Below are positions 7,374 through 56,232 of a stretch of DNA of 64,000 nucleotides, one piece after another (position 1 is the stretch's first letter; each line of letters starts with the position of its first letter). Source of the DNA: a virus; the IMG/VR virus record IMGVR_UViG_3300017971_000002, positions 1 through 64,000 of that record, one strand, 5' to 3'. The notes beneath the pieces were generated by a model, which saw only the letters and a list, made by a program, of their open reading frames with translations, was not told the DNA's origin and ran no database searches. A program made the translations under genes and the position numbers.

Positions 7374-8239
7374 TGGGAGGTGGATCATATTGCACAACGA
7401 CACGGATGGCCCGGGCCGAAGACCTGGGCTATCACACAAAGTCTGTTCATGAGACTTTTAGCCAGAGACAGATCAACAATGCGATGAACCCCCATGGCGT
7501 CAAGCTAAGGGAGGCTAGGGACTCCAAGGAGCACCCAAACTCAGTCGCAATCATGTTGGCTCTCGACCTGACAGGGTCAATGGGTTCCGTTCCTCATCAC
7601 CTTGTGAAGGACGGGTTGCCCAACATCATGGATGGGATCATTCAGAAGGGCGTGAAAGACCCTCAGCTGTTATTCGTTGGCGTGGGCGACCATGAGTGCG
7701 ATGACTCGCCCCTTCAGGTGGGACAGTTTGAGTCCAGCGATGAGCTGTTGGACAAATGGCTGACCGATATATACCTGGAAGGTGGAGGTGGGGGGAACTA
7801 CGGTGAGAGTTACCTGCTTGCATGGTACTTTGCCGGATACCACACGTCCATCGACTGCTGGGAGAAACGCCAGAGAAAGGGATACCTCTTCACGATAGGC
7901 GATGAGCCTACATTGAAGGATGTTCCGAAGGCAGCGGTTCAGAAGATCATGGGTCCTGGCCAGTATCAAAAGTACACGGCGGCACAGCTTCTTGACAAGG
8001 CGAGGGAGACATACAATGTATATCATCTCCATATCTCGGAAACTGGTGCAGGAAGTGATCCTACGACAGTCGCAGGTTGGAGACAGCTCATGGGTAAGAA
8101 CCTGATTGAGGTCAAACACCATGCAGAGGTTTCAGACATAATCGCTGACATAGTAACAAAGAACGAAAACGGACAGCAGAAAGTAACAGGGAAGAAAGAA
8201 AGTTCGACCGAGGAGCCCTCGGAAGAAGTCATGTTATGA
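7373..8239 (+). CDS. von Willebrand factor A-domain protein
   Basis: 288 aa. MIDAS motif DLTGSMG (D-x-T/S-G-S) at about residues 64-70 begins a VWA-like Rossmann domain; further metal-site candidates are the T/D around GVGDHE and the strongly conserved-looking GGGGGNYGESYLLAWYFA block. A C-terminal charged tail follows. VWA proteins are metal-dependent protein-interaction modules. Placed between a coiled-coil protein and adenylosuccinate synthetase with 1-4 nt overlaps, it probably acts with one of them. Confidence 0.8.
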   Translation: MGGGSYCTTTRMARAEDLGYHTKSVHETFSQRQINNAMNPHGVKLREARDSKEHPNSVAIMLALDLTGSMGSVPHHLVKDGLPNIMDGIIQKGVKDPQLLFVGVGDHECDDSPLQVGQFESSDELLDKWLTDIYLEGGGGGNYGESYLLAWYFAGYHTSIDCWEKRQRKGYLFTIGDEPTLKDVPKAAVQKIMGPGQYQKYTAAQLLDKARETYNVYHLHISETGAGSDPTTVAGWRQLMGKNLIEVKHHAEVSDIIADIVTKNENGQQKVTGKKESSTEEPSEEVML

Positions 8240-9348: not shown

Positions 9349-9351
9349 TAT

Positions 9352-9763
9352 GGGGATGCTTACAACTGGCTTCGACAGGGGTGCAGAACTATACATAGCA
9401 TGCAGAGGTGCTGGTGGCCTCTTAAAAAACCAGAGACACGATAGACGGCAACACCGTAGATCATACAGGACTTCAGTTCGTGATGCAGTTCGCTGCTCTC
9501 ACCGGGCTGGCACAAGTCCCTACCTACGCTTGAGGGCATAGGCGCCTACCCCGGAGTTATCTCCGCCCGGGGAGTGGTGTTATAAAGGAGGATACACCAT
9601 CTGAAGGGTTTCCTTAGACACAGGTGGTAGAGGATATCAAGGAATAGGTCAGGGCATTTGTGTCCACAGGGGTGTCCGACCGATTAAGTTCTGGGGACTC
9701 AGCATGGAGAAGTGTATAAGGAAGGATTCTTGGACGCGGGTTCGACTCCCGCCATCTCCACCA
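9352..9763 (+). ncRNA. ssrA: tmRNA (transfer-messenger RNA)
   Basis: 412 nt. 5' GGGGATG pairs with 3' CATCTCC, followed by ACCA. Both ends carry the signatures of E. coli tmRNA: CTGGCTTCGACAGGGG after the acceptor, GGTGGCCTC then a run of A, and GGACGCGGGTTCGACTCCCG at the 3' T-arm. Following the conserved ATAGAC context, the resume codon appears to be GGC at 9447-9449. The tag frame then runs 28 codons to TGA at 9531-9533, starting GNTVDHTG and ending VPTYA instead of the usual ALAA. Works with SmpB to rescue stalled ribosomes. Confidence 0.92.
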
Positions 9764-15400: not shown

Positions 15401-16018
15401 ATGAAAGAGTATATGACCATAGCACATTATAAAAATCATTCAGGCAAGGTCTATGCGTTTGATAAACTCGATGGTTCTAATGTTCGTGCGGAGTGGGATC
15501 ATAGAAAAGGATTCTGGAAGTTTGGTTCCCGGAGGAGATTACTAGATGAGAATGATCCGCTTCTTGGTGAGGCAAAGCAGCTGATAAAGAACACGGAGCC
15601 GTACTTCAATCATATATTCAAACGACAGAGATATCAGAAGGTTATCTGTTTCTTTGAATACTTAGGCGAACATTCAATGTTTGGTCAGCATACCAAAGAG
15701 ATACATGAGGTCAAGTTGATTGATGTTAGTGTATATAAGCAGGGGTTAATGACACCGCAGGAGTTCCTTAAATTATTTGGGGACTCTGGGTTCGAGGCCC
15801 GCCTTCTATATAGAGGAGAGGTCACCAAGGACTTTGTTGACAGCGTGAAGGATTCGACACTTGAGGGGATGACATTTGAAGGTGTGGTGTGTAAGGGTGC
15901 CGAGAGGCCTAAGAAGTTCTCCTATCCCATGATGTTCAAGATCAAGTCAGACGCCTGGTTGAAACAGTTGAAGGAATACTGTAAAGGTAACATCGGAATG
16001 TTTGACAAATTGAGATAA
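15401..16018 (+). CDS. small RNA ligase (nucleotidyltransferase core)
   Basis: 205 aa. Motif I FDKLDGSN with the adenylated Lys at about residue 22; motif III-like FFEYLGEHS; motif IV LEGMTFEGVVCKG; motif V MFKIKSDAW. Only the catalytic core is present, like Rnl2-type or mini ligases. First of three RNA ligase genes in the window; likely reseals cleaved tRNAs with the PNK at 28204. Start 3 nt behind the HNH gene. Confidence 0.85.
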   Translation: MKEYMTIAHYKNHSGKVYAFDKLDGSNVRAEWDHRKGFWKFGSRRRLLDENDPLLGEAKQLIKNTEPYFNHIFKRQRYQKVICFFEYLGEHSMFGQHTKEIHEVKLIDVSVYKQGLMTPQEFLKLFGDSGFEARLLYRGEVTKDFVDSVKDSTLEGMTFEGVVCKGAERPKKFSYPMMFKIKSDAWLKQLKEYCKGNIGMFDKLR

Positions 16019-16765: not shown

Positions 16766-16841
16766 GCGTCCGTAGCTCAACTCGTAGAGCAGAGTATTCT
16801 AAACACTCTGGTTGGTGGTTCAAGTCCACCCGGACGCACCA
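16766..16841 (+). tRNA. probable amber-suppressor tRNA(CTA)
   Basis: 76 nt with perfect acceptor GCGTCCG/CGGACGC and D-stem GCTC/GAGC. Counting by standard numbering gives A26, stem GAGTA/CACTC (one A-C mismatch at 31-39), loop TTCTAAA and a 5-nt variable region, so the anticodon is CTA, which reads UAG. The body resembles bacterial Arg tRNAs. Alternative: shifting one base gives TCT (Arg), but with a mid-stem A-A mismatch and no base 26. The PTH2-like gene 300 nt downstream has an in-frame TAG. Confidence 0.68.
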
Positions 16842-28203: not shown

Positions 28204-29064
28204 TTAAAAATCACCCTCAGCAACCTGGAGACAGGTGAGACCTAACTCATTTCTCCACATATCAACAACCTGATTCCTGTCGTCCAGAACAAAAAGTACA
28301 TTATAAGTTTTGGCGATGTATTTGTCATACAGCTCTCGTTTGACTATGGAGTCCTTCCTACAATCGCCAGCAGTTCTCATATAGAGATGATGGTATAATA
28401 TCCCATTCTCTTCCAGCCACTTCTCGGTCAGTTCTCTTGAGGAACCATCCCGACCAGAGAGCATGATGATCTTATATGCAGAGTCAAACATGGTATATCT
28501 CTCTATGATATGCCTCACGGGTTCATTCACTTCGTCCTGATCAACCTTGTCCCACTCGAATGGTCCTCTGGAAACCATCTTTGCAAGCGTTCCGTCAATG
28601 TCACAGATAATACATATTGAACGTCCAGGAGTAAATTTGTATTTTACAGGCTCGGGTCTAAGATACTGATTGTACATTCTCATAATGACCTTCTTACCAA
28701 CACTGGCTTCACGTTTGGCGTCCCTCTTGAGACAGGTGTCCAGATCCACATCGGTGAAATCCTTAATCCGCAGCTCCGCCTTGCCCTTAATGAGATCATG
28801 TATGTGTGTCTCATGTTTCTCATGAAGGTTGGTGTCGTCCACTATGACATGCTTGCCCTCATCCAGAGATTTCAGAATTATCTCATCCCTGATCTTTAGT
28901 ACAAACTTCTCATTGGAGCCAGACCATTTACTCACGTCCAGCATGGCACGAAGATCGTCCTTGTTCACCCTCTTATATACACCGGGGTGTTTTGTTATCA
29001 GGTCCTTTGCCCATGTGGACTTCCCGGACGCCGGTAAACCTTTTGTCATTATAACCTGTTTCAT
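28204..29064 (-). CDS. pseT: polynucleotide 5'-kinase / 3'-phosphatase (PseT-like)
   Basis: 286 aa from ATG 29064 behind GGGAGG. Kinase half: P-loop GLPASGKST (residues 9-17), DDTNLHEKH. Phosphatase half: DIDGTLAK (HAD motif I), SGRDG, and DDRNQVVDMW as motif III. Same order and length as T4 PseT (301 aa). With an RNA ligase it repairs tRNAs cut by host anticodon nucleases. Overlaps the preceding small membrane-protein ORF by 4 nt. Confidence 0.92.
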   Translation of the reverse strand: MKQVIMTKGLPASGKSTWAKDLITKHPGVYKRVNKDDLRAMLDVSKWSGSNEKFVLKIRDEIILKSLDEGKHVIVDDTNLHEKHETHIHDLIKGKAELRIKDFTDVDLDTCLKRDAKREASVGKKVIMRMYNQYLRPEPVKYKFTPGRSICIICDIDGTLAKMVSRGPFEWDKVDQDEVNEPVRHIIERYTMFDSAYKIIMLSGRDGSSRELTEKWLEENGILYHHLYMRTAGDCRKDSIVKRELYDKYIAKTYNVLFVLDDRNQVVDMWRNELGLTCLQVAEGDF

Positions 29065-29237
29065 CTGCACCTCCCTGATTTACGTCTCCATTGTGTGAAT
29101 GTTGAACCTGCCTTCTGTGTTAGATTAGTTTGATGTTGGGTGAGGGACAGCACCATGATGATACCGTCCAGTATTTTACACCAGCCTATCAGCCAGAGAA
29201 AAAACCTTTCTGTGTAGTCTATCTTTTGTCTATTCAT
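29061..29237 (-). CDS. 58-aa membrane protein
   Basis: ATG 29237 to TGA 29061. Hydrophobic segment FFLWLIGWCKILDGIIMVLS at residues 12-31, then a polar basic tail. It overlaps both neighbours by 4 nt (ATGA at each end), which strongly supports that it is translated. Family unknown. Confidence 0.6.
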   Translation of the reverse strand: MNRQKIDYTERFFLWLIGWCKILDGIIMVLSLTQHQTNLTQKAGSTFTQWRRKSGRCR

Positions 29238-33937: not shown

Positions 33938-34036
33938 GTGAACGGAGTATATAATAGAATTAGTGATACAGAATTAAGATCCATGAAGAAGGCCGAGATC
34001 GAAAAAGTCATATATTGGTATAGGAGAAAGAAATGA
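33938..34036 (+). CDS. alternative 32-aa ORF or frameshifted end of the Tat-signal gene
   Basis: GTG 33938 behind AAGGGATAACTTT begins 32 codons (ISDTELRSMKKAEIEKVIYW, basic end) to TGA 34036, overlapping the radical SAM start by 4 nt. The open frame extends upstream without a start to the A8 run, so this is more likely the shifted end of 33559 than an independent gene. Confidence 0.4.
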   Translation: MNGVYNRISDTELRSMKKAEIEKVIYWYRRKK

Positions 34037-34734
34037 AGAAATATTCTATAGATAATTTGATCATCGAGGTGACCCGCAGGTGTAACCTTAAATGTCTGCA
34101 CTGCCTGAGGGGTGATGCCCAGGACAAGGACATTGATGATAAATACATCGAGGGCCTTTTTCAGAAACTGGAGTATATATCGTTCCTGACCATAACTGGT
34201 GGTGAGCCGTCCCTGGTACCTGATAAAATCAGAACCATCATCCGCTTAGCCAAAAAGTACAAGGTGGGGATTGGGAACTTCTATATCGCCACCAATGGCA
34301 TCAAGGTTCCTGATAGGTTTTTGTTTGCGATTCTTAGACTTTGGACATATTGTGACGATAACGAAGTGACTGCAGTCGAAATAAGTAACGATGGATATCA
34401 TAACTGGCGAAAAGTTGATGATAAGATCCTGGCCTTTGGTTTTGCCCGAATGAAGTTCGAGCAAGATGGTACAAAAGACTTCTCTTTAATTCAGGAGGGA
34501 AACGCATATCTAAAGTTGGGAAAAGGACGGGAGAATCCCATACACGGTTTCACTGTTGAGGATGAACGTATAGATGGTGAACTATATCTCAACTGTAAAG
34601 GTAACATACTATCGAATTGCGATCTATCATATTATAGGCAGGACGATGAGGAGAACATAGTGGTGCGTAACATAGCACGAAAGAGATTGGATTTAGGCAA
34701 GGCTTGTGAATCATTCAACCCTGAGGAGGAATAA
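34033..34734 (+). CDS. radical SAM enzyme
   Basis: 233 aa, AGGAGAAAGA Shine-Dalgarno. TRRCNLKCLHC at about residues 13-23 is the CxxxCxxC 4Fe-4S site; TGGEPSL near 54 is the SAM-binding GGE motif; IATNG near 84 follows. The C-terminal LNCKGNILSNCDLSY carries two more cysteines that could hold an auxiliary cluster. Substrate unknown; its neighbours are a Tat-signal protein and an RNA ligase. Confidence 0.88.
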   Translation: MKKYSIDNLIIEVTRRCNLKCLHCLRGDAQDKDIDDKYIEGLFQKLEYISFLTITGGEPSLVPDKIRTIIRLAKKYKVGIGNFYIATNGIKVPDRFLFAILRLWTYCDDNEVTAVEISNDGYHNWRKVDDKILAFGFARMKFEQDGTKDFSLIQEGNAYLKLGKGRENPIHGFTVEDERIDGELYLNCKGNILSNCDLSYYRQDDEENIVVRNIARKRLDLGKACESFNPEEE

Positions 34735-34925
34735 TGAAAAATAGGATAGAGGCATCAGTTGTATATAATGGTCCCTGGTGGCATTTTCTTGCCTGCCTGT
34801 TGGCGCAGGGATATCCAGTTTTATCATTTGAAGTCGGACTCTGGACTCTGGTTCCGATTTTCAATGCGATGTATGTATTTGGTTTATCAATAGTTAAAGG
34901 AGCAATGTATGACTCTACTAGATAA
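34734..34925 (+). CDS. small membrane protein
   Basis: 63 aa, GAGGAATA Shine-Dalgarno, TAATG overlap with the radical SAM gene. Two short hydrophobic segments (WWHFLACLLAQGYPVLSF; LWTLVPIFNAMYVFGLSIV). Its last 17 nt overlap the RNA ligase start. Family unknown. Confidence 0.6.
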   Translation: MKNRIEASVVYNGPWWHFLACLLAQGYPVLSFEVGLWTLVPIFNAMYVFGLSIVKGAMYDSTR

Positions 34926-35940
34926 GATACAGACTGAGATTGAGGCTGGAAATGTCATGGTCAAGAAACATCCAGAGGTAGATTATTACATATATAATTA
35001 CACTCCGGACTGTCAGTTCAAAAGGCGTTGGAACGGCACCAACATGATGTGTCGCGGGTTGATACTCAATGAGTATGGTGAGATAATTGCACGGCCTTTC
35101 CCGAAGTTTTTCAACTATGAGGAGCTCCCTGGATTAGGTATCCAGATACCTAATGAGACCTTTGAGGTGTATGACAAGCTGGATGGTTCTCTTGGTATCT
35201 TATACAAGATGCCCGATGGTACTCCCAGAATTGCAACTCGCGGTTCGTTTGACTCTGAGCAGGCTCGGGTAGCCAACAGGATACTTGAAAATAGATACAA
35301 GGATTTTCATTTCAAGGATGGATTCACCTATCTGTTTGAGATCATATATCCAGATAACAGGATCGTGGTAAACTATGGTGATGTAACAGATCTGTTTCTT
35401 CTCGCCATCATAGATAACGAGACCGGGTTTGATTTTTCAATTAATGATATTTCCTTGCCAACCGTCAAGAAGTATGACGGTGTAAAGGACTTTAGGGTTC
35501 TAACTAAGAATGATAAGAATAATTCTGAGGGCTTTGTTGTGAAGTTTGACAATGGGTTTAGACTAAAGATGAAGTTTGAGGAGTATGTAAGACTTCACAG
35601 AATCGTCACCGGTCTAAATGAGAAGGCTGTTTGGGAGATGCTCAAGGATGGTGCAGACTTTGATTCTATACTGGTGAATCTTCCTGAGGAGTTTGAGAAG
35701 TGGATCAAGGAGGTCAAGGATAACTTTGAGAAGGAGTTCGATACAAACAAGGCTCTGGCCCTTGGTGTCTTTGAGAGGGTTAAGAATCTTTCTACTAGGA
35801 AAGAGCAGGCAATCACAATAAAGAACAGTATTAGCAATAAGCTGTGGGCTGTCGTGTTCAAGATGCTTGACGGTAAGGGGTACGATGAGTATATCTGGAA
35901 GATATTGAAACCAATTACCAAGGAGGACGATGATGGCTAA
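34909..35940 (+). CDS. rnlA: T4 Rnl1-like RNA ligase
   Basis: 343 aa (T4 RnlA is 374), AAAGGAGCA Shine-Dalgarno. Adenylation motif EVYDKLDGSLG near residues 86-96 with the nucleotidyl Lys; upstream CRGLILNEYGEIIARPFPKF typical of Rnl1; FEIIYP (motif III); EGFVVKF (motif IV); LKMKFEEYVRLH (motif V). Joins 5'-phosphate to 3'-OH at broken tRNA anticodon loops after PNK healing. Confidence 0.9.
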   Translation: MTLLDKIQTEIEAGNVMVKKHPEVDYYIYNYTPDCQFKRRWNGTNMMCRGLILNEYGEIIARPFPKFFNYEELPGLGIQIPNETFEVYDKLDGSLGILYKMPDGTPRIATRGSFDSEQARVANRILENRYKDFHFKDGFTYLFEIIYPDNRIVVNYGDVTDLFLLAIIDNETGFDFSINDISLPTVKKYDGVKDFRVLTKNDKNNSEGFVVKFDNGFRLKMKFEEYVRLHRIVTGLNEKAVWEMLKDGADFDSILVNLPEEFEKWIKEVKDNFEKEFDTNKALALGVFERVKNLSTRKEQAITIKNSISNKLWAVVFKMLDGKGYDEYIWKILKPITKEDDDG

Positions 35941-36142
35941 ACATAACTGGGTTAAGATATCGGATAGTAGTATCGAGGTTGCCAATGTAGATTGGTGTAC
36001 GATAACTGGTGCGATTCGTATCGACGGAAAGGTGGAACATCCTTCTTATGACTGCAATGGTTGTACTGCGAAAGACATGGATTCCTCACACGGTTGTATA
36101 GAGTGCCGTCGGTTATATCATGATGGATGGGAGGGAGAATGA
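35930..36142 (+). CDS. unknown cysteine-rich small protein
   Basis: 70 aa, AAGGAGGACG Shine-Dalgarno, overlaps the ligase end by 11 nt. Five to six cysteines (WCTITG, CNGCTAKDMDSSHGCIECRR) fit a zinc-binding fold. Family unknown. Overlaps the Thg1 gene by 4 nt. Confidence 0.62.
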   Translation: MMAKHNWVKISDSSIEVANVDWCTITGAIRIDGKVEHPSYDCNGCTAKDMDSSHGCIECRRLYHDGWEGE

Positions 36143-36855
36143 ACTTAGGCGATAGGATGAAAGAATACGAGCGAGCCTTCTCTGGCAAGTATCCGATACG
36201 GATGCCTCTCGTTCTCCGTCTGGACGGTGTCCACTTCCACACCAATGTAAAGAAATGGAAATGTAGGAAGCCGTTCGACTATAGGTTGATCGATTCTATG
36301 ATAAGAACATCTTTTGACCTTTGCAAAACGATACCAGGTGCACAGATCGCATACACGCAATCTGACGAGATAACGATTCTTATAAGGGACGACCAGACCT
36401 TTGAGACCGAGCCATGGTTTGGTAAGAAGATAAACAAGATCACGTCTGTCACTGCGTCCATGGCGACAGCGTTATTTAATGAGGCATTTAGAGCATTTCA
36501 TAATGTGGACATTAATATGCCTTGTGCGTTTTTTGATTGCCGGGGATTTGTTCTTCCAGAGAATGAGATATATAACATATTCCTCTGGAGGCAGCAGGAC
36601 GCAACACGTAATGCCATTCAGATGGTAGGCCGTTCTCAATTCTCTCACAAAGAGCTACATAAGAAATCCTGTGACCAGATCCAGGACATGCTTTTTCTTT
36701 TGAAGAAGATCAACTTCAATGATCTTCCAACTATCGAGAAACGCGGAACCTGTATTGTGAAGGGGGAGGATGGAAAGTGGTTCATTGATAAGGAGATACC
36801 GATCTTTTCACAGGACCCAGACTATATAAACAGATTCGCAAAGTTATCGAATTGA
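36139..36855 (+). CDS. tRNA-His guanylyltransferase (Thg1-like)
   Basis: 238 aa from ATG 36139 behind GGGAGGGAGA. LGDRMKEYE, MPLVLRLDGVHFHT (metal-binding D in RLDG), YTQSDEITILI (second and third carboxylates) and WFGKKINKITSVTASMATAL match Thg1 motifs in order. Thg1-like proteins polymerise 3'-to-5', adding G-1 to tRNA-His or repairing truncated tRNA 5' ends. The phage tRNA-His gene already has G at -1, so 5'-end repair is the likelier job. Confidence 0.9.
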   Translation: MNLGDRMKEYERAFSGKYPIRMPLVLRLDGVHFHTNVKKWKCRKPFDYRLIDSMIRTSFDLCKTIPGAQIAYTQSDEITILIRDDQTFETEPWFGKKINKITSVTASMATALFNEAFRAFHNVDINMPCAFFDCRGFVLPENEIYNIFLWRQQDATRNAIQMVGRSQFSHKELHKKSCDQIQDMLFLLKKINFNDLPTIEKRGTCIVKGEDGKWFIDKEIPIFSQDPDYINRFAKLSN

Positions 36856-37541: not shown

Positions 37542-38570
37542 TCAAGGCCATGTTCCATCAATTATGTTCACATAATGATCTCTTATTATCTTACTTGCTG
37601 CCTTTTGGACCTTACCTTTGATAATTTTTTGAACGGACTTATTCAGCTCACCGAAGGCCTCATTGAAATCCTTGTTAAACTCCTCCGATATATCCCTGGA
37701 GAACTCCCCAAGTAACTTTCCAAAGTCCTTTTGCCCAACTGGTCCGAACTTGGATAACACATTCACTAATCTGTTCTCCGTAACGAGAGAATGAAATTCA
37801 TGGTAAAGTCTTTGTTCCTCGTCAGTCAGTTGAACCTCTATCTTTGGCTTTCTATCACTTGCCTTACTCTTTTCCTCCCACTTGGCGTTCTTGTTCTTGA
37901 GAATGACCCTGGACCCGTTAGGAAAAAACCTTGGCTCTACGGGTCTTATAACAACACCCTCGCAGAAGTTATCATCAATCTGTGGAAGTTGAAACTTACC
38001 AGGGACGGTGGTCTGGAATTCATTTTTATATTCCAGGCAGTTCTTTAATGAACCTTCAAATAAAGTCTCCGCATGAAGAAACCCAAACCTGTTAAATAGA
38101 TCATTGGCTTCTGGTACGGATAGGTACACACCGTTTACCCTTATATCGAAGGCGTAGAAATCATTGTGAGGGCAATAATGTATACCCTTCTGTATTTTCT
38201 TGGCCCCCGGATCTACCGATACATCCTTGTGAGGATACGAACCACCAAACAGTTCTCCATACACTGCGACCTCGAGCGGGTCCTCAATATTCTGCTGGGA
38301 CACACGAAGAAAGGTGTGAAGATTCTGTATGTTCGGACGTAGCCGATCACGAACTTCCTGAAAGTTGGAAAAATTATCATCCTCCTTTAGAAAGGCGCTT
38401 CTCTTGGCGCATTTGAGATCAGTTCCATCGTACCAAATGGAAAAATTGGCACCATGTATCTTCTCTGATACGACAAATGTACCATCATCAAGAGTATACT
38501 GTTTTAATAGTTCCAGATACTTGACTCTGTAACTATTCTCTATACTTGAAAACTTCTTAAACTCTTTCAT
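37542..38570 (-). CDS. T4 Rnl2-like RNA ligase
   Basis: 342 aa. VVSEKIHGANFSIWYDG near 34-50 is the Rnl2 adenylation motif (K-x-x-G-x-N); YGELFGG near 104-110 (motif III); FCEGVVIRP near 208 (motif IV); ILKNKNAKWEEK near 227 (motif V). The C-terminal 110 residues form a helical domain, as in Rnl2 (334 aa), which seals nicks in double-stranded RNA. Third ligase in the window. Overlaps the upstream gene by 4 nt. Confidence 0.9.
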   Translation of the reverse strand: MKEFKKFSSIENSYRVKYLELLKQYTLDDGTFVVSEKIHGANFSIWYDGTDLKCAKRSAFLKEDDNFSNFQEVRDRLRPNIQNLHTFLRVSQQNIEDPLEVAVYGELFGGSYPHKDVSVDPGAKKIQKGIHYCPHNDFYAFDIRVNGVYLSVPEANDLFNRFGFLHAETLFEGSLKNCLEYKNEFQTTVPGKFQLPQIDDNFCEGVVIRPVEPRFFPNGSRVILKNKNAKWEEKSKASDRKPKIEVQLTDEEQRLYHEFHSLVTENRLVNVLSKFGPVGQKDFGKLLGEFSRDISEEFNKDFNEAFGELNKSVQKIIKGKVQKAASKIIRDHYVNIIDGTWP

Positions 38571-47729: not shown

Positions 47730-48917
47730 TTATGCGCCAATCTTTAAAAAGACCGATGATGTATTACCTATGCTACTTGTGGAATACTTATATACGAATT
47801 TAAAAAAGTCATCATTGGCGTGTAGTGCTATCTGGAGTGCTTGAACCTTGGATGATAGTATGTCACCGACCTGGTTTATATCGCCTTTCTTCTCTATGGT
47901 CAATTCCTCTATCACCTTTTCAAGGTCTTTCATGTCTTTGAAGTTACGAAGGAAGCCAACATCCAACTCCTTCCTTTTCTTGAGTTCCAATATTATATGT
48001 AGAAAGAAACCTAAAAACTTTTCACTAATTTGTTCATCTATTATTATCTCATTTCGAGAGAACTGTATCACTTTACCTTTGGTGTTTTTTTCTAACCAAC
48101 CAACCATGGCAGTAAAACCTACTCCCCCGGCAAGTCCCTTCTTTCCCTTTTGTTTGATCTCACCCTTGACCCGAGTTCCAATCTTCCGGGTACTCCGAAT
48201 CTGGAACTTTATATTATCATCAAGATCGATGAGGAGAGCGTCCTTGGTCATGGCTGTCAACTTGGTCATAATATTATGCTTTATCTGATCAAGCTCGACA
48301 TCCGCTTCCTTCGACATCTCGGCAATATTGAACCACTTAACGGGGGGATTTTTTGTGGCTTTCTTCAATGATATACCAACGATGTTTCGGCCGCCCTTAG
48401 CCTCCCTCATCATATATTCGTTTATATCTTCAATCGTCTTGAATTTTAATATCGTGCGTAATGTCTTTGTGGGATTCTTAAACATCCATACATCTGCGGG
48501 GTTCCATTTGTTTATATCCATGCCCGATACATTGGCGTCCTTGAGTAGTTTCTTAACGTGTGCCTCGAGCTGCTTGACTACATCACTATCTTTATGGAAT
48601 GTATCTTTTTTTGTGGCCTTAAGTTCTTTCTTAATTGCCTCTGCTGTATAGCATGTACCGACCAGCCATTTTTCATTACTCAATAAAGATTCAAGTATCA
48701 GGGCCGGGCTCCCGGTCCCGAAAAACCGCTGAAAAAGGGAATTTAGCTCCTTGATCAATACATCGTTACTGGTTTTCTTAATGTATTCGATACATTTGAT
48801 AGCGTTGGAAAATCTTTTCTCTATATAAAACGGAGTGATCATGGCAACCGCGGTCTCAAAGACCTTCGCCTTCTTGGTTCCAAGTTGCCCTTCGTTTAAT
48901 ATTGTTTCAAATTTCAT
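47730..48917 (-). CDS. large unknown protein with capsid-targeting-like leader
   Basis: 395 aa. Leader MKFETILNEG with LNE followed by G at residues 7-10, an exact prohead-protease-type site. The rest is a lysine-rich, mostly helical protein with a strand-rich middle (LLIDLDDNIKFQIRSTRKIG). The dispersed GC-rich repeat copy 4 lies inside (encoding GTGSPAL). No enzyme motifs recognised. Last of 11 leader-bearing proteins in a row on this strand. Confidence 0.75.
   Translation of the reverse strand: MKFETILNEGQLGTKKAKVFETAVAMITPFYIEKRFSNAIKCIEYIKKTSNDVLIKELNSLFQRFFGTGSPALILESLLSNEKWLVGTCYTAEAIKKELKATKKDTFHKDSDVVKQLEAHVKKLLKDANVSGMDINKWNPADVWMFKNPTKTLRTILKFKTIEDINEYMMREAKGGRNIVGISLKKATKNPPVKWFNIAEMSKEADVELDQIKHNIMTKLTAMTKDALLIDLDDNIKFQIRSTRKIGTRVKGEIKQKGKKGLAGGVGFTAMVGWLEKNTKGKVIQFSRNEIIIDEQISEKFLGFFLHIILELKKRKELDVGFLRNFKDMKDLEKVIEELTIEKKGDINQVGDILSSKVQALQIALHANDDFFKFVYKYSTSSIGNTSSVFLKIGA
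48703..48715. repeat. dispersed GC-rich palindrome, copy 4
   Basis: GCCGGGCTCCCGG, followed by TCCCGAAAAACCG, which is the complement of the CGGTTTTTCGG seen beside copy 2. Lies in frame within the 47730 gene. Confidence 0.6.
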
Positions 48918-49323
48918 GTAAATAACTAAATCCTAACTCTGGCCAAAAACTTTTATACTTGACCTTGGGTAACATTTTCTTGATCGCAGCGATCACTTCC
49001 TCTTTGTTTTTGACATCCTTCCAGTTTAACCATCCGACGGAGTTGTCTCCCATAATAGAATGTGCTCTTCCAGGTTCATAGTAAAAACCAAAGAGTTTTT
49101 TACCTGGTATATGTTTGATAACATCCCTATGTAAAAATGTCGCTGGCCATGCATATATCTTAGGTTTCTTTTTATCTTCAATGAAAAATCTGGCTCCCCA
49201 TCCATCCTTATCAATCGTTTTTCTTACTTCATCACTTGAAGGATTTACAAAAAACTCAACAGCACGTCCCTTTAACTTTACAGTCTTGAAATATTTTTCA
49301 TTTAAAAGATCACTAAATTTCAT
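48907..49323 (-). CDS. leader-bearing protein, KIYAW family
   Basis: 138 aa from ATG 49323. Leader MKFSDLLNEKY. Shares with 49325 and 50373 the EKY.KT start, VE.F.NP, ARFF/VRFG, KIYAW, a following H, and a K-rich end (IKKMLPKVKY), so these are three paralogues. Small alpha/beta domain of unknown role; leader predicts packaging into the head. Confidence 0.75.
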   Translation of the reverse strand: MKFSDLLNEKYFKTVKLKGRAVEFFVNPSSDEVRKTIDKDGWGARFFIEDKKKPKIYAWPATFLHRDVIKHIPGKKLFGFYYEPGRAHSIMGDNSVGWLNWKDVKNKEEVIAAIKKMLPKVKYKSFWPELGFSYLHEI

Positions 49324-49324
49324 T

Positions 49325-49738
49325 TTAAATCTTGAATGGTTTTCCGCCAAACGGTCTAAAGGTTTTTGCTTTTGGTAACATCTTCTTTATTCTTTCTATA
49401 AGTTTCTTTTTGTTTTTAAATCTTGCAAATGAATACTTCTGATCTGTATATATAATTTCAGGTGTTCTAAACTCATAGTAAAACCCAAAATCAAAGTCAA
49501 CCCCATCTGGATTCTCTTTCATATTTGGGTGAAGTATTTCTCCTCCCCATGCATATATCTTTCCGTTTGGTTTGTCTATTACACCAAATCGAACAGAGCC
49601 GCCCCATTGTTTTGCTATTGATTGAATTTCGGTTGGCGCTGGATTTTCAAATACTTCCACAGTCTCATATCCAACGGGAAATGTTTTTGCCCTTACAGTC
49701 TTTAAATATTTTTCATCCAATACATCTCTGAATTTCAC
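49325..49738 (-). CDS. leader-bearing protein, KIYAW family, GTG start
   Basis: 137 aa from GTG 49738, which overlaps the previous stop (GTGA) and gives the leader MKFRDVLDEKY exactly; the upstream ATG would put five extra residues before it. Blocks VEVFENP, VRFGVIDKPNGKIYAWGG, RIKKMLPKAK shared with its paralogues. Confidence 0.73.
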   Translation of the reverse strand: MKFRDVLDEKYLKTVRAKTFPVGYETVEVFENPAPTEIQSIAKQWGGSVRFGVIDKPNGKIYAWGGEILHPNMKENPDGVDFDFGFYYEFRTPEIIYTDQKYSFARFKNKKKLIERIKKMLPKAKTFRPFGGKPFKI

Positions 49739-50376
49739 TGACTCTTTCTCCATTTATAATATGAATCATATGCCTTTATCATTTCATATACTTTCTTATA
49801 TGTATCCAGCTCCTTGAAAACTCTCTTCCTATAAGCGTCAGATCCCTCTCTAAAACCCTTCACCAAATTGAATTTTTCTTGAACCCACTTTGGAGATAGA
49901 TTCAAAAAGAATGAAGGAGAAAGTAAAAAATATTCCTTTGTATCCAATACAAGTTCATCATATTTCTTCTTTATTCCGTCTTTATATGTATCTATCAATG
50001 CGGCTGCTGTCTTTTTATTTTTAGTAACATCCGTCAAGTCCTTGACCTCTTCTGAATATTTTACATTCCATTTGCCCTTCGGAATGACTACATACACCTG
50101 ACCAAACACAGACGCTTTTGCTGGAGCGGTTGTAACAAAGACAGGTTTTAAAATTCCAATCCCTTTAAGAATTGCCTGCATTTTTCCATGTGTTGTATCC
50201 AATATCTTACCTTTGAACGCCAAATCCTTTCTGTCGTTTTTTATTTTGTTTGCCCCGTGTGAGAATTTTAGATTGTGTCCTCTATACATCACAGGACTGC
50301 TTCCCATTTTCTTTAAATGAGAGAGCAACTCTGTGTGAGTCGCCTGTTCCTCATTGAGAAGATCGGTAAATTTCAT
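49735..50376 (-). CDS. leader-bearing protein, possible ADP-ribosyltransferase-like fold
   Basis: 213 aa. Leader MKFTDLLNEE. SPVMYRGHNLKFSHG near 27-41 and KPVFVTTAPAKASVFGQVYV then VIPKG near 77-101 recall the R and S-T-S/FG segments of ART-like toxins found in phages (Y-R-G, then F-x-T/S near FG). The expected Glu is not certain. If real, it would resemble T4 Alt, an ADP-ribosyltransferase packaged in the head and injected with the DNA. Confidence 0.62.
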   Translation of the reverse strand: MKFTDLLNEEQATHTELLSHLKKMGSSPVMYRGHNLKFSHGANKIKNDRKDLAFKGKILDTTHGKMQAILKGIGILKPVFVTTAPAKASVFGQVYVVIPKGKWNVKYSEEVKDLTDVTKNKKTAAALIDTYKDGIKKKYDELVLDTKEYFLLSPSFFLNLSPKWVQEKFNLVKGFREGSDAYRKRVFKELDTYKKVYEMIKAYDSYYKWRKSQ

Positions 50377-50783
50377 AGATCAACCTTTAAACTTTTTAAC
50401 CTTCCTTTGTCCATTCCAATTATTCCGATGTATTTGACTTGGGGTATAAGTTTCTTAATCTTCTTTTTGAAACTATCCTTGTTTTTAAATGATACCCACT
50501 GAGGCGCCCATGTACTTCCAAGTGCAGGTTGTCCAGGGGTCCATTGAAACGCCCAATCAAAGTCTATATGCTTCAATAACTTTTCATGTATCTTGTCACC
50601 CGTCCAGGCATATATCTTTCCGTTCTTCTTATCCTCGACACCAAATCGAACATCCTTAAAGAGACCCGCTTTACTTATGGCCTTTATCTCGCCGGGATCT
50701 GGATTGACAAAAATCTCAACAACATCGCCATCTACTTTGGTGGTTTTCATGTATTTTTCATTGAGAAGATGTTTGAATTTCAT
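50373..50783 (-). CDS. leader-bearing protein, KIYAW family
   Basis: 136 aa. Leader MKFKHLLNEKYMKTTK, then VEIFVNPDPGEIKAISK and VRFGVEDKKNGKIYAW, closest of the three to 49325. Overlaps its downstream neighbour by 4 nt. Function unknown. Confidence 0.75.
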   Translation of the reverse strand: MKFKHLLNEKYMKTTKVDGDVVEIFVNPDPGEIKAISKAGLFKDVRFGVEDKKNGKIYAWTGDKIHEKLLKHIDFDWAFQWTPGQPALGSTWAPQWVSFKNKDSFKKKIKKLIPQVKYIGIIGMDKGRLKSLKVDL

Positions 50784-50784
50784 T

Positions 50785-51027
50785 TTATTTGAATATCCTT
50801 TGAATCTGTTGACCTAACCAAATGACAGGATCGCCCGTTCTTGCCTTGGCGACACCATAAGGCATCATTCCCTTATCAGTAAAGTATTTGTATAGTTTAT
50901 CAAAGGCATCGGTGTCAGTTTCGACCTCGCCTGTTTTTATAATGAGCTTTAGTTCCTTTGGATTATTGATCAATTTCTTAATGTCGGCCTTCTGATCTTC
51001 TATTATGAATTTAGTGAATCTTCCCAT
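50785..51027 (-). CDS. small leader-bearing protein
   Basis: 80 aa. Start MGRFTKFIIED (IIE then D) is a divergent form of the leader. Body basic and helical with a possible DNA-binding look (FTDKGMMPYGVAKARTGDPV). Family unknown. Confidence 0.66.
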   Translation of the reverse strand: MGRFTKFIIEDQKADIKKLINNPKELKLIIKTGEVETDTDAFDKLYKYFTDKGMMPYGVAKARTGDPVIWLGQQIQRIFK

Positions 51028-51035
51028 GGTGTCTC

Positions 51036-51278
51036 CTATAGTTTTTTGACAAACGTATCAACCAGTTTAGACCACTGTTTCTCTAATTCAAATAATTTCT
51101 TATATGTTCTTTTTGTATCATTCTGAGAAGGAACATCCTTGCCTGTCATATGATGGGTGATTAATTCAATATCATCCTCATCCATTTCATCGACATTAAC
51201 AAATGCCTTTAGGGCATCACCGATATCTTTCCTTTGATTTGGTGTCATTTTTTCATTTACAACTTGCTTAAAGTCCAT
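51036..51278 (-). CDS. small leader-bearing protein
   Basis: 80 aa, AGGAGGAAATAT Shine-Dalgarno. Leader MDFKQVVNEK. Body helical and acidic in the middle (NVDEMDEDDIELITHHM). Family unknown. Confidence 0.66.
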   Translation of the reverse strand: MDFKQVVNEKMTPNQRKDIGDALKAFVNVDEMDEDDIELITHHMTGKDVPSQNDTKRTYKKLFELEKQWSKLVDTFVKKL

Positions 51279-51286
51279 ATTTCCTC

Positions 51287-52720
51287 CTATAGCTGTTTGA
51301 TAAATTTCTTTATCTTGGCCTCGTCTTTAATATTTATGTTATTGTCCGCGATCCAATCGACCGTCTTTTGAATATATCGACCAACAGCTGGTCCCGGCTT
51401 GATTCTCTTTAAGCGCATGATTAGAGAGCCTGTAACGACTTTTCGTATGTTGGTGAGGGCGTCAGTACCCTTGTCTGCGAACTGCCGTGTAATGGCGTCT
51501 ATCTTGACTTTGATGGCATCCCACTCCTTCTTATTGAACATCTTTCCGCGGGCACGTGCGTCCATTTCCCCGACCGCTAAAAGGGTTGCCCAATTTGGAT
51601 CATTCATTAATTGAATAATTTTCTTATTACTCATCTTTAGTAAGTCGTGTATTTTCATATGGTTAAGAGTGGCGAACTTCATTGCGTTTTTTGTCTTGGT
51701 GTCCAATTTTAATCTCTGAGCTATCTGATCGACCATCTCCGCACCCTCTTTGTGATGTTGGAAATAGGTGATCCGTCCCTTCTCATCCATCTTCTTTGTT
51801 TTGATCTTTCCAATATCATGTAGCAGAATTGATAGATTAACTATTGGATCCTTGGAATCGCTTGCTCGAAGAGCTGCCAATGTATGGGCATACACCCCGC
51901 CCTCGGGATGATTCTCTATATCATGTTCAAACTCTTTCATCTTTACTACTTCCGGAAGTATATGATGAAGGAGTCCAACTTGATCCAGTTTCACGATTGC
52001 GTCAGCGAACTTACCACCCTTTTGTTTCGCCATCTTAAGGAGCTCCTTGGTCACCCGCTCGGGTGCTATGTCCTTTATCTTAATGGAGCTCTTTTGTATC
52101 GCTGTTGTTACTTCTGGATCAAGTTGGAGGTCCAATCGAGAAGCAAATCTCACCGCCCTGAGCATTCTCAGGTAATCCTCACTAAACCTTTTGTCCGGGT
52201 CGCCGACGGCCCTTAGGGTCTTATTCTTTATATCACCCTGACCATCAAAGTGATCTATTATATTGCCCTTACTATCGACCGCCATGGCGTTTATGGTGAA
52301 ATCCCTTCTCTCTGCATCTCCTTTAAATGTTGCTACAACCTCTATCTTGTCTGGCCGCCTACCATCCGTATATGTTCCATCTTTTCTAAACTGAGCTATC
52401 TCAAAATCCTCACCCTTGTGTTTAACCACGACTATACCAAAATCCTTATTGGCACCAATGTCATGGGTCTTGAATAAGGATTCAATCTTTTCCATTGGAA
52501 CATTCGTTGCGATGTCTATATCATCTGGTTTCTTTTCTCCAGAGATTATATCACGAACGGCGCCACCAACAATGTATGCCTGACCGTGTTTCTCAAGCAC
52601 TTTAAGTATCTCCACGCCCTTCTTTAGAATCGGGATACGTTTTATGTAACCCTCCCAATCCTTAAAAACCTTTTGCGCTTCGGTTAAAACCCTCTCATTA
52701 TATACATCACGAAATCTCAT
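51287..52720 (-). CDS. cca: CCA-adding enzyme / poly(A) polymerase family with HD domain and leader
   Basis: 477 aa. Leader MRFRDVYNER, then an insert before the class II core: IVGGAVRD (about 50-57), DDIDIATN (about 66-73), RRDFTINAMA (about 138-147), DPDKRFSEDYLRMLRAVRFA (about 172-191). An HD domain follows (LLHDIGKIK near 299, H...HKEGAEM). Adds or repairs 3'-CCA on tRNAs; at least two phage tRNAs here lack encoded CCA. The leader suggests the enzyme is carried in the virion. Confidence 0.88.
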   Translation of the reverse strand: MRFRDVYNERVLTEAQKVFKDWEGYIKRIPILKKGVEILKVLEKHGQAYIVGGAVRDIISGEKKPDDIDIATNVPMEKIESLFKTHDIGANKDFGIVVVKHKGEDFEIAQFRKDGTYTDGRRPDKIEVVATFKGDAERRDFTINAMAVDSKGNIIDHFDGQGDIKNKTLRAVGDPDKRFSEDYLRMLRAVRFASRLDLQLDPEVTTAIQKSSIKIKDIAPERVTKELLKMAKQKGGKFADAIVKLDQVGLLHHILPEVVKMKEFEHDIENHPEGGVYAHTLAALRASDSKDPIVNLSILLHDIGKIKTKKMDEKGRITYFQHHKEGAEMVDQIAQRLKLDTKTKNAMKFATLNHMKIHDLLKMSNKKIIQLMNDPNWATLLAVGEMDARARGKMFNKKEWDAIKVKIDAITRQFADKGTDALTNIRKVVTGSLIMRLKRIKPGPAVGRYIQKTVDWIADNNINIKDEAKIKKFIKQL

Positions 52721-52950
52721 TTATCTTCCACCACATATTTTGTTCTTATAAGTGTATCTCCAACTGCGCACAATCCACATATATCTTTTACCAATATCCT
52801 TTTATTATTCGTTGGCTCAAACACATATATACATTTATCTTCTTCAGAATATATATCGACAACCTTATCACGCACCTTTACCTTTTTGTAAGTCGCAGAA
52901 GCAGTACAGCCTAACAATAACAATAATACTATATATCCTCTCCAGTTCAT
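52717..52950 (-). CDS. small lipoprotein
   Basis: 77 aa. Signal MNWRGYIVLLLLLGC with lipobox LLGC (Cys 15). Mature part beta-rich with CIYVF and CGLCAVGDTLIRT, sharing C...VGDTL with the lipoprotein at 3410. Overlaps the CCA gene and the Nudix gene by 4 nt each. Its start also fits the leader loosely (MNWRGYI), but it is clearly a signal peptide. Confidence 0.72.
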   Translation of the reverse strand: MNWRGYIVLLLLLGCTASATYKKVKVRDKVVDIYSEEDKCIYVFEPTNNKRILVKDICGLCAVGDTLIRTKYVVEDK

Positions 52951-53423
52951 AAATTATCCTGTAATCTCTCTATGAAAACCTTCTGTCTTTGATTTATTTT
53001 TCTTAATGCTTCCGGTATATTGTAAAATCTTGCTGTCTCGATCTCCGGGAACTTTTTCATCTTACCGCTCTTTGGAGGCCATTCCATCTCAAATGTATTA
53101 CTTCGCTTGAATTCTTTTTCACCCTCGACGGCCCATACATACATTGTTTTATTGGCAAGCGGTGCAGAACCAAGACTCATCATGTTTTTGGTTACTGGAC
53201 GGACTCCAATCTCCTCACTAAACTCACGAACGGCCGCCCTTTTTGGCGTCTCCCCATCATTGACTTTTCCTTTTGGAATCGACCAAGAGCCATCATCTCG
53301 TCCTTTCCAGAGAGGGCCTCCTGGTTTTGCAAGAAACACTTGAAGTGTATTTCCTTTGAATCTATATTGAAGTATTCCGGCGGTAACTGTTTTGCCTTCT
53401 GCCAGTAGTTGTTCAAATCTCAT
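52947..53423 (-). CDS. Nudix hydrolase with capsid-targeting-like leader
   Basis: 158 aa from ATG 53423 behind AAAGG (two in-frame starts lie just upstream). Leader MRFEQLLAEG has LAE then G, exact for the protease rule. Nudix box GETPKRAAVREFSEEIGV near 59-76, preceded by SWSIPKGKV. Hydrolyses X-linked nucleoside diphosphates; possible targets are Ap4A, NAD(H), capped RNA or oxidised nucleotides. Confidence 0.87.
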   Translation of the reverse strand: MRFEQLLAEGKTVTAGILQYRFKGNTLQVFLAKPGGPLWKGRDDGSWSIPKGKVNDGETPKRAAVREFSEEIGVRPVTKNMMSLGSAPLANKTMYVWAVEGEKEFKRSNTFEMEWPPKSGKMKKFPEIETARFYNIPEALRKINQRQKVFIERLQDNL

Positions 53424-53428
53424 TCTCA

Positions 53429-53752
53429 TCACCTTTCTGCTGTCTTTACAAATCCGCTGGACTCAAACTCAATTCGTATCAAAGCGTCTCCCCATTTATC
53501 GGTATAGTACCATATACTATCTTGAACAACCATGTTTGGTTTCCCATACATTATCTCGACCAAGTCTCTATCGAATCCGGGGCCAATTCTTTTCTCTATG
53601 AATTGTTGCTTGGTCTTTGGTGAATATCTAGCACCATTTTTCTCAATATACTCAACCCGTTTTGATTGACTCAATCCTCGTTCACTTAAAGGCCTTGTTG
53701 TTGATGTACATGATAATAACAAGGTCAATAATATACATAATAGATATTTCAT
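53429..53752 (-). CDS. lipoprotein, BamE/SmpA-like pattern
   Basis: 107 aa. Lipobox LLSC with Cys at 15 after a hydrophobic core. Mature region YGKPNMVVQDSIWYYTDKWG then ALIRIEF resembles the BamE/SmpA fold (G-x-P ... W-x-Y). Phage lipoproteins of this sort could act at the outer membrane. Overlaps neither neighbour. Confidence 0.65.
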   Translation of the reverse strand: MKYLLCILLTLLLSCTSTTRPLSERGLSQSKRVEYIEKNGARYSPKTKQQFIEKRIGPGFDRDLVEIMYGKPNMVVQDSIWYYTDKWGDALIRIEFESSGFVKTAER

Positions 53753-53755
53753 TAT

Positions 53756-54709
53756 TTATGGTTGGCCACTAAATTTGATATTACTCGCCATCTGTTCAGA
53801 GGCGAACTTCGGGCGCATCATCATTATTCGCTTTCCACCAGCAGAGATGATAACATTATCATTACCCGTCTTATCAATTGTAATCTTGGATGAATATAAT
53901 TTGTCTAATTTCTCGTTTCTTAATGGGTCTGTTATGTTTGCAGAAAAAGGTTCCTTTGAACCCATACCTGTTACTTTTATATATGGAGGAAATGTATCTT
54001 TTGCGTCCATCCAATCGTCAAGTATATAATTAAGTAGATCCTTCTGCTTCATCTTTTTAAGTTTAGCCATTAATACATCGGCCATGTCAGAGAGAACTTT
54101 TCTTCCAGCCTCTTTAGTCTTTTTTTGAAGATTAGCATCTGCACGTATCTCTAATTTTCTCTTTGGTCTACTTGGAGATAATTTGTGTTTCTTTATAATG
54201 ACTTTCTCTGCGTCCTCTAATATCTTTCCGAGATTTATTTTGAGTGCTTTTTCAACTGTTCCCATCCCTGGATTCTTGAAACCGATATCCGCCTTCTGTT
54301 TGGTTGACTTTGCCGATATACCTAAGAACTTACCTTTTGGATATTCTATCAATGTATCGGTCGGGTTCTTTGCAGAATCAACTTGCTGTCCAACGGCCTT
54401 TGATAGAACACCTTTTCTCGCAGTCCAATAGACCTTTACAGGTTCGCCTTTATATCCATTCTTCTTTGCCCATTTCTTGATCTCCTCGGCCATCGTTCTT
54501 GCCTGACCGGATCTAAGACCATAGGCAAACATCCCAACAATCTTTCTTTTTGCTGCTAGTTGTTTCTTAGCTGAAGCTGCATCCTGAAAACCTTTCCATG
54601 AACCTTTGTTTCCTTGACCCAATATATAGAATCCAACAAGTATCTCATTTATATCGGCCTCGTGGGTGTTTATAGCTTCGTTTAAATAGAAGTCTTTGAA
54701 TCTTCTCAT
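53756..54709 (-). CDS. leader-bearing protein, possible nuclease fold
   Basis: 317 aa. Leader MRRFKDFYLNEA has LNE then A, exact for the prohead-protease rule. PTDTLIEYPKGKFLGISAKS near 116-135 resembles the D...(S/A)-x-K core of PD-(D/E)xK nucleases; other catalytic residues are not certain. Lysine-rich helices fill the rest. A packaged nuclease would fit host-DNA attack on injection; inference. Confidence 0.65.
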   Translation of the reverse strand: MRRFKDFYLNEAINTHEADINEILVGFYILGQGNKGSWKGFQDAASAKKQLAAKRKIVGMFAYGLRSGQARTMAEEIKKWAKKNGYKGEPVKVYWTARKGVLSKAVGQQVDSAKNPTDTLIEYPKGKFLGISAKSTKQKADIGFKNPGMGTVEKALKINLGKILEDAEKVIIKKHKLSPSRPKRKLEIRADANLQKKTKEAGRKVLSDMADVLMAKLKKMKQKDLLNYILDDWMDAKDTFPPYIKVTGMGSKEPFSANITDPLRNEKLDKLYSSKITIDKTGNDNVIISAGGKRIMMMRPKFASEQMASNIKFSGQP

Positions 54710-54718: not shown

Positions 54719-56191
54719 TTATGCAAAACGGATCATCATCTGTCGCCAGTTTGGATCGCCAGACATTCTGATCTTAACAGCATTAAGAAACGTTCTCATG
54801 TTGGCTTCCTTGTTCAGATCAACTCCGTCCTTCTTTAGTATCTCCAGAACTTCTTTCTTTACACTCATAGGAACGGTCTTTTTCTGACCAAAGATCACTA
54901 CATCAGGAATCATCTTGTCAAGAACCGACTCCATCCTAGCGAAAACATCTGTCGCTTTTAGAGTCACATCAATGGCAAAAGACCTTGACTTAACGGCTGC
55001 GTCAATTTGATTTATGTTCAAGTTAGAGATAAAGATCACCTGACCATCAAATATGAAGTTACTTGGAAACATTGGTTTCTCTCCAAGTGCCAGAGAATCC
55101 ATCTCATCGTCTGAGAGGGGATCTAGAGGATTGATTGGATAGGTGTTCTTACTTTCCCATGATATATCCCTTACATCGTGTGAGTCAAGAGCGGCCTTCA
55201 AAATGTTCTTTGCTGTTGCGTCTTTAAATACATCGTCAGAGTCATCAAATACCACTATTCTTTTTCTATTAATGAATAATGTTCTATATAGACCAAATGG
55301 TGACACGGCTCCTTTCTTCACAACGAAGTCCTGACCTTTCACCTTACCTGCGGCCTTGAGCTGCTTCTGAACTGTGAATGTTTTTCCGATACCTGCCATT
55401 CCTGTTATGAGAAGGGACGGTTGGATTCCAGAAATAATCATATTGACCAACGATTCCAAATCTTTGAATATTGTTTTTGGATCTGCATATTGGATGTTGG
55501 CAAGTTGTTTTGAAGATTTCTTCACATCAGAACCGGGAACTATTTTAAGTTTCTTTCCACGATTTACTTTTAATTTCTCAAGTGCCGATGCTTTTGTCTT
55601 TGTTGCCTTTCCCTTCTTTTGGAGTTTCTCAAGTTTCTTTTGAAGATTGGCCATGGAGAAACCAAAATTTCTTCTAATAAATCTTGAGTCCTTTCCCTGT
55701 TCCAGGGCATGAATTGCGGCGTCTGATTTGGAGGCAAAGTCTTTTCCATCATATTCAACAAGACCTTCACTTAGGATCGTGTCCTTGTCCATCACTCTCA
55801 TCTCTTGTATTGGTGCGACCAATATGTCTTTCTTGACCACAGGTTTCTCTATGAAACTCACTATAGCCGGGAGTATCTTAATAATTGATAGACCTTTTGT
55901 TTCAATGTTTACGGCAGGATCCGGACTATCCGTAGCATCCCAAATATCGACGGAATGGATCTGGGTGAGTTTTCCACCACCCTTGAAATTAAACTGAATG
56001 GCTTTTGGAGAACCGTCTATGCCGAGTAATATACCATGCATTTGACCGCCCTTGGCATCAAACACCCTTTCGCCGTAATCGAATAATTTCTTTCCAAGAC
56101 GTTTCTCAAGAACCTTTTTAATGATCCCGACCATTTTGCCAGCCTGTTCGACCTTGAACGCCTCTGTTATAAAATCTTTAAATCTTGTCAT
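54719..56191 (-). CDS. leader-bearing AAA-type ATPase
   Basis: 490 aa. Leader MTRFKDFITEA (ITE then A) is the closest match to T4's MKTYQEFIAEA-like leader as I recall it. An N-terminal 200-residue region of unknown fold is followed by Walker A GMAGIGKT near 265-272 and Walker B RIVVFDDSDD near 313-322, sensor-like IFISNLN. Might unwind or move DNA at injection. TATAAATA lies 34 nt upstream. Confidence 0.78.
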   Translation of the reverse strand: MTRFKDFITEAFKVEQAGKMVGIIKKVLEKRLGKKLFDYGERVFDAKGGQMHGILLGIDGSPKAIQFNFKGGGKLTQIHSVDIWDATDSPDPAVNIETKGLSIIKILPAIVSFIEKPVVKKDILVAPIQEMRVMDKDTILSEGLVEYDGKDFASKSDAAIHALEQGKDSRFIRRNFGFSMANLQKKLEKLQKKGKATKTKASALEKLKVNRGKKLKIVPGSDVKKSSKQLANIQYADPKTIFKDLESLVNMIISGIQPSLLITGMAGIGKTFTVQKQLKAAGKVKGQDFVVKKGAVSPFGLYRTLFINRKRIVVFDDSDDVFKDATAKNILKAALDSHDVRDISWESKNTYPINPLDPLSDDEMDSLALGEKPMFPSNFIFDGQVIFISNLNINQIDAAVKSRSFAIDVTLKATDVFARMESVLDKMIPDVVIFGQKKTVPMSVKKEVLEILKKDGVDLNKEANMRTFLNAVKIRMSGDPNWRQMMIRFA

Positions 56192-56224: not shown

Positions 56225-56232
56225 TATTTATA
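56225..56232 (-). promoter_or_regulatory. TATAAATA box before the leader-bearing operon
   Basis: Exact minus-strand TATAAATA 34 nt ahead of the ATG at 56191. The same spacing (31-34 nt) is seen at 56831 and 58366. Confidence 0.5.

Follow-up and report, generated by a model that had tools for sequence, protein, structure and literature searches.

The window, the whole 64,000-nucleotide stretch that was analysed, comes from a T4-like virus whose record spans 202,503 bases and includes a gene for a gp23-like capsid protein. At 51287–52720 on the minus strand lies a gene for a tRNA nucleotidyltransferase of 477 residues, predicted to be a class II CCA-adding enzyme with its catalytic apparatus intact. 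Its ATG start overlaps the upstream gene, and no alternative start codon occurs between this ATG and codon 36. Pfam matches delineate a nucleotidyltransferase head domain (PolyA_pol, 2.5e-30; residues 48–170, 52211–52579), an RNA-binding domain (PolyA_pol_RNAbd, 4.7e-11; residues 198–258, 51947–52129) and an HD domain (1.4e-5; residues 294–359, 51644–51841), all on the minus strand, and the protein matches phrog_2244, tRNA nucleotidyltransferase, at 1e-76. Alignment of the window protein with 26 viral relatives revealed that the GGxVRD, DxD, RRD, EDxxR and HD residues are invariant. The AlphaFold model has a mean pLDDT of 90.4, with residues 1–17 below 50; its closest solved structures are bacterial CCA-adding enzymes, in agreement with the sequence match.

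Head motifs together with the RNA-binding domain place the protein among the class II CCA-adding enzymes. The CCA type was assigned through motifs and fold, not through the cut-off of the curated equivalog model NF009814, which was the best-scoring model although its 239.8 bits fall short of the required 290. A poly(A) polymerase of the PcnB type was considered and rejected, since TIGR01942 scored 163.7 bits, below the 239.8 bits of NF009814; all the CCA models stayed under their curated cut-offs. An earlier note on this DNA had described class II CCA/poly(A) polymerase motifs plus an HD domain, and the Pfam and PHROG matches and the invariant catalytic residues bear out that description.

The leader and the extra N-terminal segment

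The enzyme begins with a capsid-targeting-like leader, MRFRDVYNE (52694–52720, minus strand), for which the pattern and comparison with T4 predict a prohead-protease cut after E9; a second possible cut, identified by eye, lies after E15 (VLTE/A). The leader is followed by an extra segment from residue 10 to about residue 29 (52634–52693, minus strand), in which the alignment displays a W-x-x-Y motif common to the leader clade. Eight other phages have CCA enzymes that lack about 24 residues of this N-terminus, and solved CCA enzymes (bacterial chains) start near profile position 22–25. Together with the low pLDDT of residues 1–17, these observations confirm that an additional segment precedes GGAVRD, as the earlier note had held.

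The T4 internal protein IPIII served as reference for the capsid-targeting sequence (CTS). According to the pertinent passages of PMC9026906, its first ten residues are enough for packaging, with residues 4 and 7 acting in targeting and residues 8 and 10 in processing. T4 IPII and IPIII both begin with MKTYQEFIAEA, so that Y4, F7, I8 and E10 align at equal spacing over F3, V6, Y7 and E9 of the window enzyme; the arrangement F3-x-x-V6-Y7-x-E9 equals the mapped IPIII determinants, including the glutamate at the cut. An S77 (gp21-like) prohead protease gene is present in the genome (E 4e-30). Leader determinants, cut-site glutamate and protease are features expected of T4-type CTS cargo. R10, which follows E9 here where relatives most commonly have A, S or G, counts against packaging.

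The leader pattern is found at 32 of 327 ORF starts in the 202.5-kb genome versus 9 of 1012 internal methionines, and in the T4 control at 5 of 252 ORF starts (IPII and IPIII among them) versus 7 of 900. Two relatives, G024 and G017, were counted with a narrower pattern than the window genome and gave 32/248 ORFs versus 5/777 internal methionines and 15/200 versus 0/634, respectively. ORF counts throughout rest on uncurated automatic calls, taken longest first with a minimum of 60 amino acids, and those around relatives' CCA genes used a slightly wider pattern, with L admitted at the first key position. Among the matches listed, such leaders mark 100 of 393 ORFs near leader-clade CCA genes, 12 of 128 near the ten nearer leaderless CCA genes and 10 of 718 near 41 distant CCA genes, the last being the internal-methionine rate there. 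The counts in the genome, the relatives and the T4 control exclude a chance origin of the leader, and its enrichment at ORF starts, combined with the IPIII spacing, upholds its earlier description as capsid-targeting-like. In phage Atu_ph07 (1–50 kb covered), just 1 of 65 ORFs carries a leader, which makes this phage useless as a proteomic calibration.

Selection was quantified on 15 leader-clade genes whose first 30 codons align gap-free. Key codons 3, 6, 7 and 9 displayed a pN/pS of 0.16, compared with 0.99 for codons 2, 4, 5, 8 and 10 and 0.33 for the linker (codons 11–25); among the 126 four-codon subsets of codons 2–10, the key set ranks second lowest. The conserved linker residues W17, Y20 and N24 indicate that the whole extra segment is also constrained. 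Mere relatedness as the cause of leader conservation is excluded by this codon pattern, and constraint on precisely the set to which the T4 data point is the strongest single piece of sequence evidence for a CTS-like tag. A different reading takes the leader as a signal unrelated to the capsid, one that might, for example, address a phage compartment, recruit a partner protein or act in translation start, with only convergent likeness to the T4 CTS. It draws on abundance: leaders mark a tenth of the genes here and 100 of 393 ORFs in the neighbourhood of related CCA genes, many more than the few CTS proteins of T4. We consider it quite improbable: spacing and residue classes equal those of the T4 CTS, protease-site E included, an S77 protease and a late-type promoter accompany them, and the key codons vary synonymously, which speaks against an RNA signal.

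Leaders among viral relatives

Used alone as query, the window protein matched no viral contig, and an alignment had to take its place; this returned at least 599 matches, of which 80 viral loci were retained. Before tree building, nine of 90 sequences were removed as short or broken (L041, L044, L050, L051, L052, L056, L060, L064 and L083); two of them, L044 and L050, have the leader. The resulting quick tree, with SH-aLRT support only, has 81 rows among the matches listed; leader and variant labels were assigned from N-termini, for some rows after a choice among start codons. Within the group of 31 rows to which the window belongs, again among the matches listed, 21 rows have the leader, three a variant (L022, L024, L045) and seven none (L042, L046, L047, L048, L049, L054, L055), and none of the other 50 rows is labelled leader. 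Aligned leader rows are 46–53% identical to the window protein. Its nearest rows among the matches listed, L024 and L022, are both variants: L024 has the pattern shortened by one residue, and L022 keeps LFE/S, comparable to LFE/G in the phage's own capsid protein.

The earlier note had named leaderless homologues in close relatives as evidence against packaging. Such homologues do exist in moderately near relatives, the seven leaderless rows, and the nearest rows L024 and L022 have only variant leaders, but 21 of the 31 rows of the group keep the leader. Packaging cannot therefore be essential to the enzyme in all these phages. In L049 and L054, a leaderless CCA gene is adjoined by leader-bearing genes, so the tag is no blanket feature of every gene. 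N-termini such as MKIDLSLFNEE (L073, L075–L077, L079 and L084, with a similar one in L082) recall the start of T4 Alt by eye; they are off-pattern and were left uncounted. Of 39 related records, many of them fragmentary, 9 contain the S77 protease. No CCA enzyme match was obtained in two relatives by major capsid protein, represented by fragments of 18.9 and 66.5 kb, a negative of little weight.

Some CCA genes of relatives have unusual architectures. Three are interrupted, perhaps by introns or inserts (L041:4712-7092, L056:1-2046 and L083:6001-7512, with gaps of about 930, 720 and 235 nt), and in a 735-kb uncultured phage the homologue lies within a 1237-residue open frame (L019:658-4371), perhaps a fusion.

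A leader-rich operon behind a late-type promoter

The CCA gene is the sixth of 13 same-strand genes that run from 56191 to 47730 with gaps below 10 bases or overlaps. Ten of the 13 carry the leader, and an eleventh (49325–49753) does so, as MKFRDVLDE, if read from an internal GTG. The first gene (54719–56191) encodes a P-loop ATPase-like protein with leader MTRFKDFITEA, the second (53756–54709) a protein of no assigned function with leader MRRFKDFYLNEA, and the fourth (52947–53432) a NUDIX hydrolase with leader MMRMRFEQLLAEG. The third and fifth (53429–53752 and 52717–52950), both without leader, are lipoprotein-like by eye. Downstream of the CCA gene follow two small leader proteins (51036–51278 and 50785–51027), a further leader-bearing protein (50373–50783), a phrog_11975-like protein with leader (49735–50376), the gene with the internal GTG, a gene with leader MKFSDLLNE from an internal ATG (48907–49350) and a phrog_1462-like protein with leader (47730–48917), all on the minus strand. 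For 49735–50376 an ADP-ribosyltransferase was considered from motifs seen by eye, but it goes no further than a visual likeness, the model having a pLDDT of 34 and Pfam giving no meaningful match. Several small leader proteins resemble one another by eye through EKYxKT...EIFVNP (48907–49350, 49325–49753 and 50373–50783, as well as 162704–163177 of the phage's own record).

A T4-type late promoter octamer, TATAAATA, is located 34 nt ahead of the gene that opens the operon (56225–56232, minus strand); early or middle promoters may also serve it. The same octamer precedes gp20-, gp22- and gp23-like genes by 27–55 nt, the names gp20 and gp22 being given from gene order alone, as well as several further genes. 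It occurs 14 times in the window versus 4.2 expected and 10 times in the 20-kb structural stretch versus 1.4 expected; it is also found among the tRNA genes. Two of 21 relatives' operons ran off their contig. Among the 19 testable, eight have the octamer no more than 160 nt before their first gene, with 0.46 expected; its absence over the same distance in the other 11 counts against packaging. When ten further proteins of the window's operon were compared with 82 loci, only two weak matches resulted, whereas the CCA enzyme with its leader recurs.

Leader-bearing genes near related CCA genes were surveyed as well. Among 83 such ORFs listed, 70 were scanned, the 13 omitted including copies and the CCA gene of L036. 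Pfam identified P-loop kinases (AAA_33, zeta toxin), NT5C, ART-PolyVal, an ATP-grasp RimK-like protein and peptidase C39, and the commonest PHROG was phrog_11975 (4 of 70), which matches 49735–50376 of the window too. An NAD-dependent DNA ligase in L023 and some other hits are probably chance matches to the pattern. Two genes upstream of its CCA gene, L041 has a leader-bearing polyvalent-type ADP-ribosyltransferase (L041:3733-4422; PF18760, 2.9e-25), a works-like parallel to T4 Alt.

A proposed role in tRNA repair, and comparison with known systems

The window contains 37 predicted tRNA genes (738–23763, plus strand), 34 of them with an encoded 3′ CCA; in two relatives all tRNA genes encode it (35/35 and 9/9), bringing the three phages together to 78 of 81. 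Because phage tRNA genes already encode CCA, repair is likelier than maturation: the tRNA-maturing role put forward in the earlier note is weakened in favour of repair, as is the idea that the enzyme chiefly matures the tRNAs of the phage itself, and mending clipped tRNA tails, of host or phage, fits better with the sequences. Cas12a3 has been described as a defence that cuts tRNA CCA tails (in part of PMC12851939), and a review of jumbo phages counts CCA-adding enzymes among the means of repairing RNA that host RNases have attacked, in a passage that makes no mention of packaging (PMC7824862).

The 37 tRNA genes cover nearly all amino acids. One at 16766–16841 with anticodon cta, called Pyl by ARAGORN, is possibly an amber suppressor, and a cta tRNA is present in G017 too. 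A predicted tmRNA (9212–9763) with an odd 28-residue tag, perhaps a false call, overlaps the end of an adenylosuccinate synthetase-like ORF (8236–9348; PurA 130 bits versus PurZ 49, all below cut-off).

Five other RNA-repair genes lie in the window: an RNA ligase (15401–16018), a Pnkp kinase-phosphatase (28204–29070), an Rnl1-like ligase (34909–35940), a Thg1-like protein (36127–36855) and an Rnl2-like ligase (37542–38570). None has the leader pattern, and no octamer is listed within 400 nt upstream of them. A radical-SAM-like ORF (34033–34734) matches many families weakly, with viperin at 3.4e-7, far below cut-off.

One could imagine that the packaged protein has a function other than CCA addition: its HD domain might treat RNA ends as a phosphatase or phosphodiesterase would, or the protein might serve as an RNA-binding scaffold. 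Conserved HD residues would agree with this, as would the Pnkp, the three RNA-ligase-family proteins and the Thg1-like protein available for RNA-end repair, and the E. coli enzyme has HD-domain activities. All class II nucleotidyltransferase residues are invariant, however, and the best matches are bacterial CCA-adding enzymes; we therefore regard this alternative as very unlikely.

A more serious competitor is an ordinary phage CCA enzyme that matures or maintains phage and host tRNAs late in the producing cell; its leader would have been acquired through gene shuffling within a leader-rich operon, and the protein would be at most a passenger in the head. Phage CCA enzymes are indeed widespread, with matches in 460 phage records, and most lack a leader, as do all nine that were examined; three of the 37 tRNA genes lack an encoded CCA, and the late-type octamers among the tRNA genes imply that tRNAs and enzyme may be co-expressed. 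This account appears improbable to us, if less so than a non-capsid signal, given purifying selection that falls exactly on the CTS positions within the CCA gene, the CCA encoded by 78 of 81 tRNA genes, and leaderless CCA genes beside tagged ones, from which it follows that the tag does not spread automatically.

We instead favour delivery of the enzyme in the phage head. It would be produced late in infection alongside head proteins and carried by its T4-type CTS leader into the prohead core, where the gp21-like protease would cut behind E9 (or E15) and so free the enzyme of its leader. Retained in the head with other leader-bearing proteins, the processed enzyme would be ejected into the next host along with the DNA. 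There it would rebuild the CCA on clipped tRNAs, at first those of the host and afterwards those of the phage, and thereby sustain translation from the first minutes on. Head delivery would let repair precede the reading of phage genes.

These parts differ in strength. Packaging in the virion, suggested by the earlier note, appears likely on the evidence of CTS spacing, selection, the gp21-like protease, the late-type promoter and tagged neighbours, evidence that is genomic throughout and comes from an uncultivated phage. Leader cleavage and ejection are inferred as well. Early tRNA repair by the delivered enzyme is about evenly poised, and early action against CCA-clipping defences such as Cas12a3 is plausible. 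The combined reading, a packaged, leader-cleaved and ejected enzyme that repairs clipped tRNAs, is the one toward which the sequences lean somewhat. More tentatively, a clade of uncultivated T4-like phages might equip its heads with tens of leader-addressed proteins, many of them enzymes such as a CCA-adding enzyme, NUDIX, nucleotide kinases, an ADP-ribosyltransferase and an ATP-grasp ligase; the CCA enzyme would be the member that recurs and would undo Cas12a3-type clipping ahead of all phage gene expression.

If this is correct, tRNA repair would be delivered with the phage genome, not made afterwards, and would directly counter defences that cripple translation through cuts in tRNA tails, for example the Cas12a3 described in part of PMC12851939. 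The leader would then offer a simple sequence rule for predicting injected proteins among the many uncharacterised genes of these phages, with tens of candidate host-takeover or counter-defence proteins per genome.

The principle of packaging is known; the CCA-enzyme cargo is apparently new. Among the titles, abstract openings and passages searched, mostly from journals outside subscription and with passages of the CB7 paper (PMC7344957) included, no report of a virion-packaged CCA enzyme was recognised; such an enzyme may nevertheless have been detected in virions of RaK2, Atu_ph07, XacN1 or CB7. The window enzyme shares the phrog_2244 family with the CCA enzymes of Tunturiibacter phage Tunturi_5 (its best phage-record match, 31% identical), RaK2, Atu_ph07 and XacN1, but differs from the nine phage-record homologues examined in bearing a leader. 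The relevant passages on RaK2 (PMC3622015), Atu_ph07 (PMC6102473) and XacN1 (PMC5852040) present these enzymes as tRNA maturation or repair, not as virion proteins. Likewise, the bacterial class II enzymes 1miv (Bacillus stearothermophilus) and 6qxn (from a psychrophile) agree with it in fold, catalytic residues and domain order, and lack the leader. Polyvalent and other injected phage proteins are enzymes injected with the DNA (part of PMC5512222); whereas polyvalent proteins form one fused chain, the window phage has separate chains with a common CTS-like leader. The closest parallel is to T4 IPI, IPII, IPIII and Alt, with which the system has in common a short leader, equal key spacing ending in E, a gp21-like protease, a late-type promoter and varied cargo. 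By all that sequence can tell, the CCA protein resembles a T4 internal protein, though we do not class it as one, the system being known here from genes alone. It departs from the T4 case in that the cargo is a CCA-adding enzyme and in that leaders occur on about a tenth of the genes of this genome.
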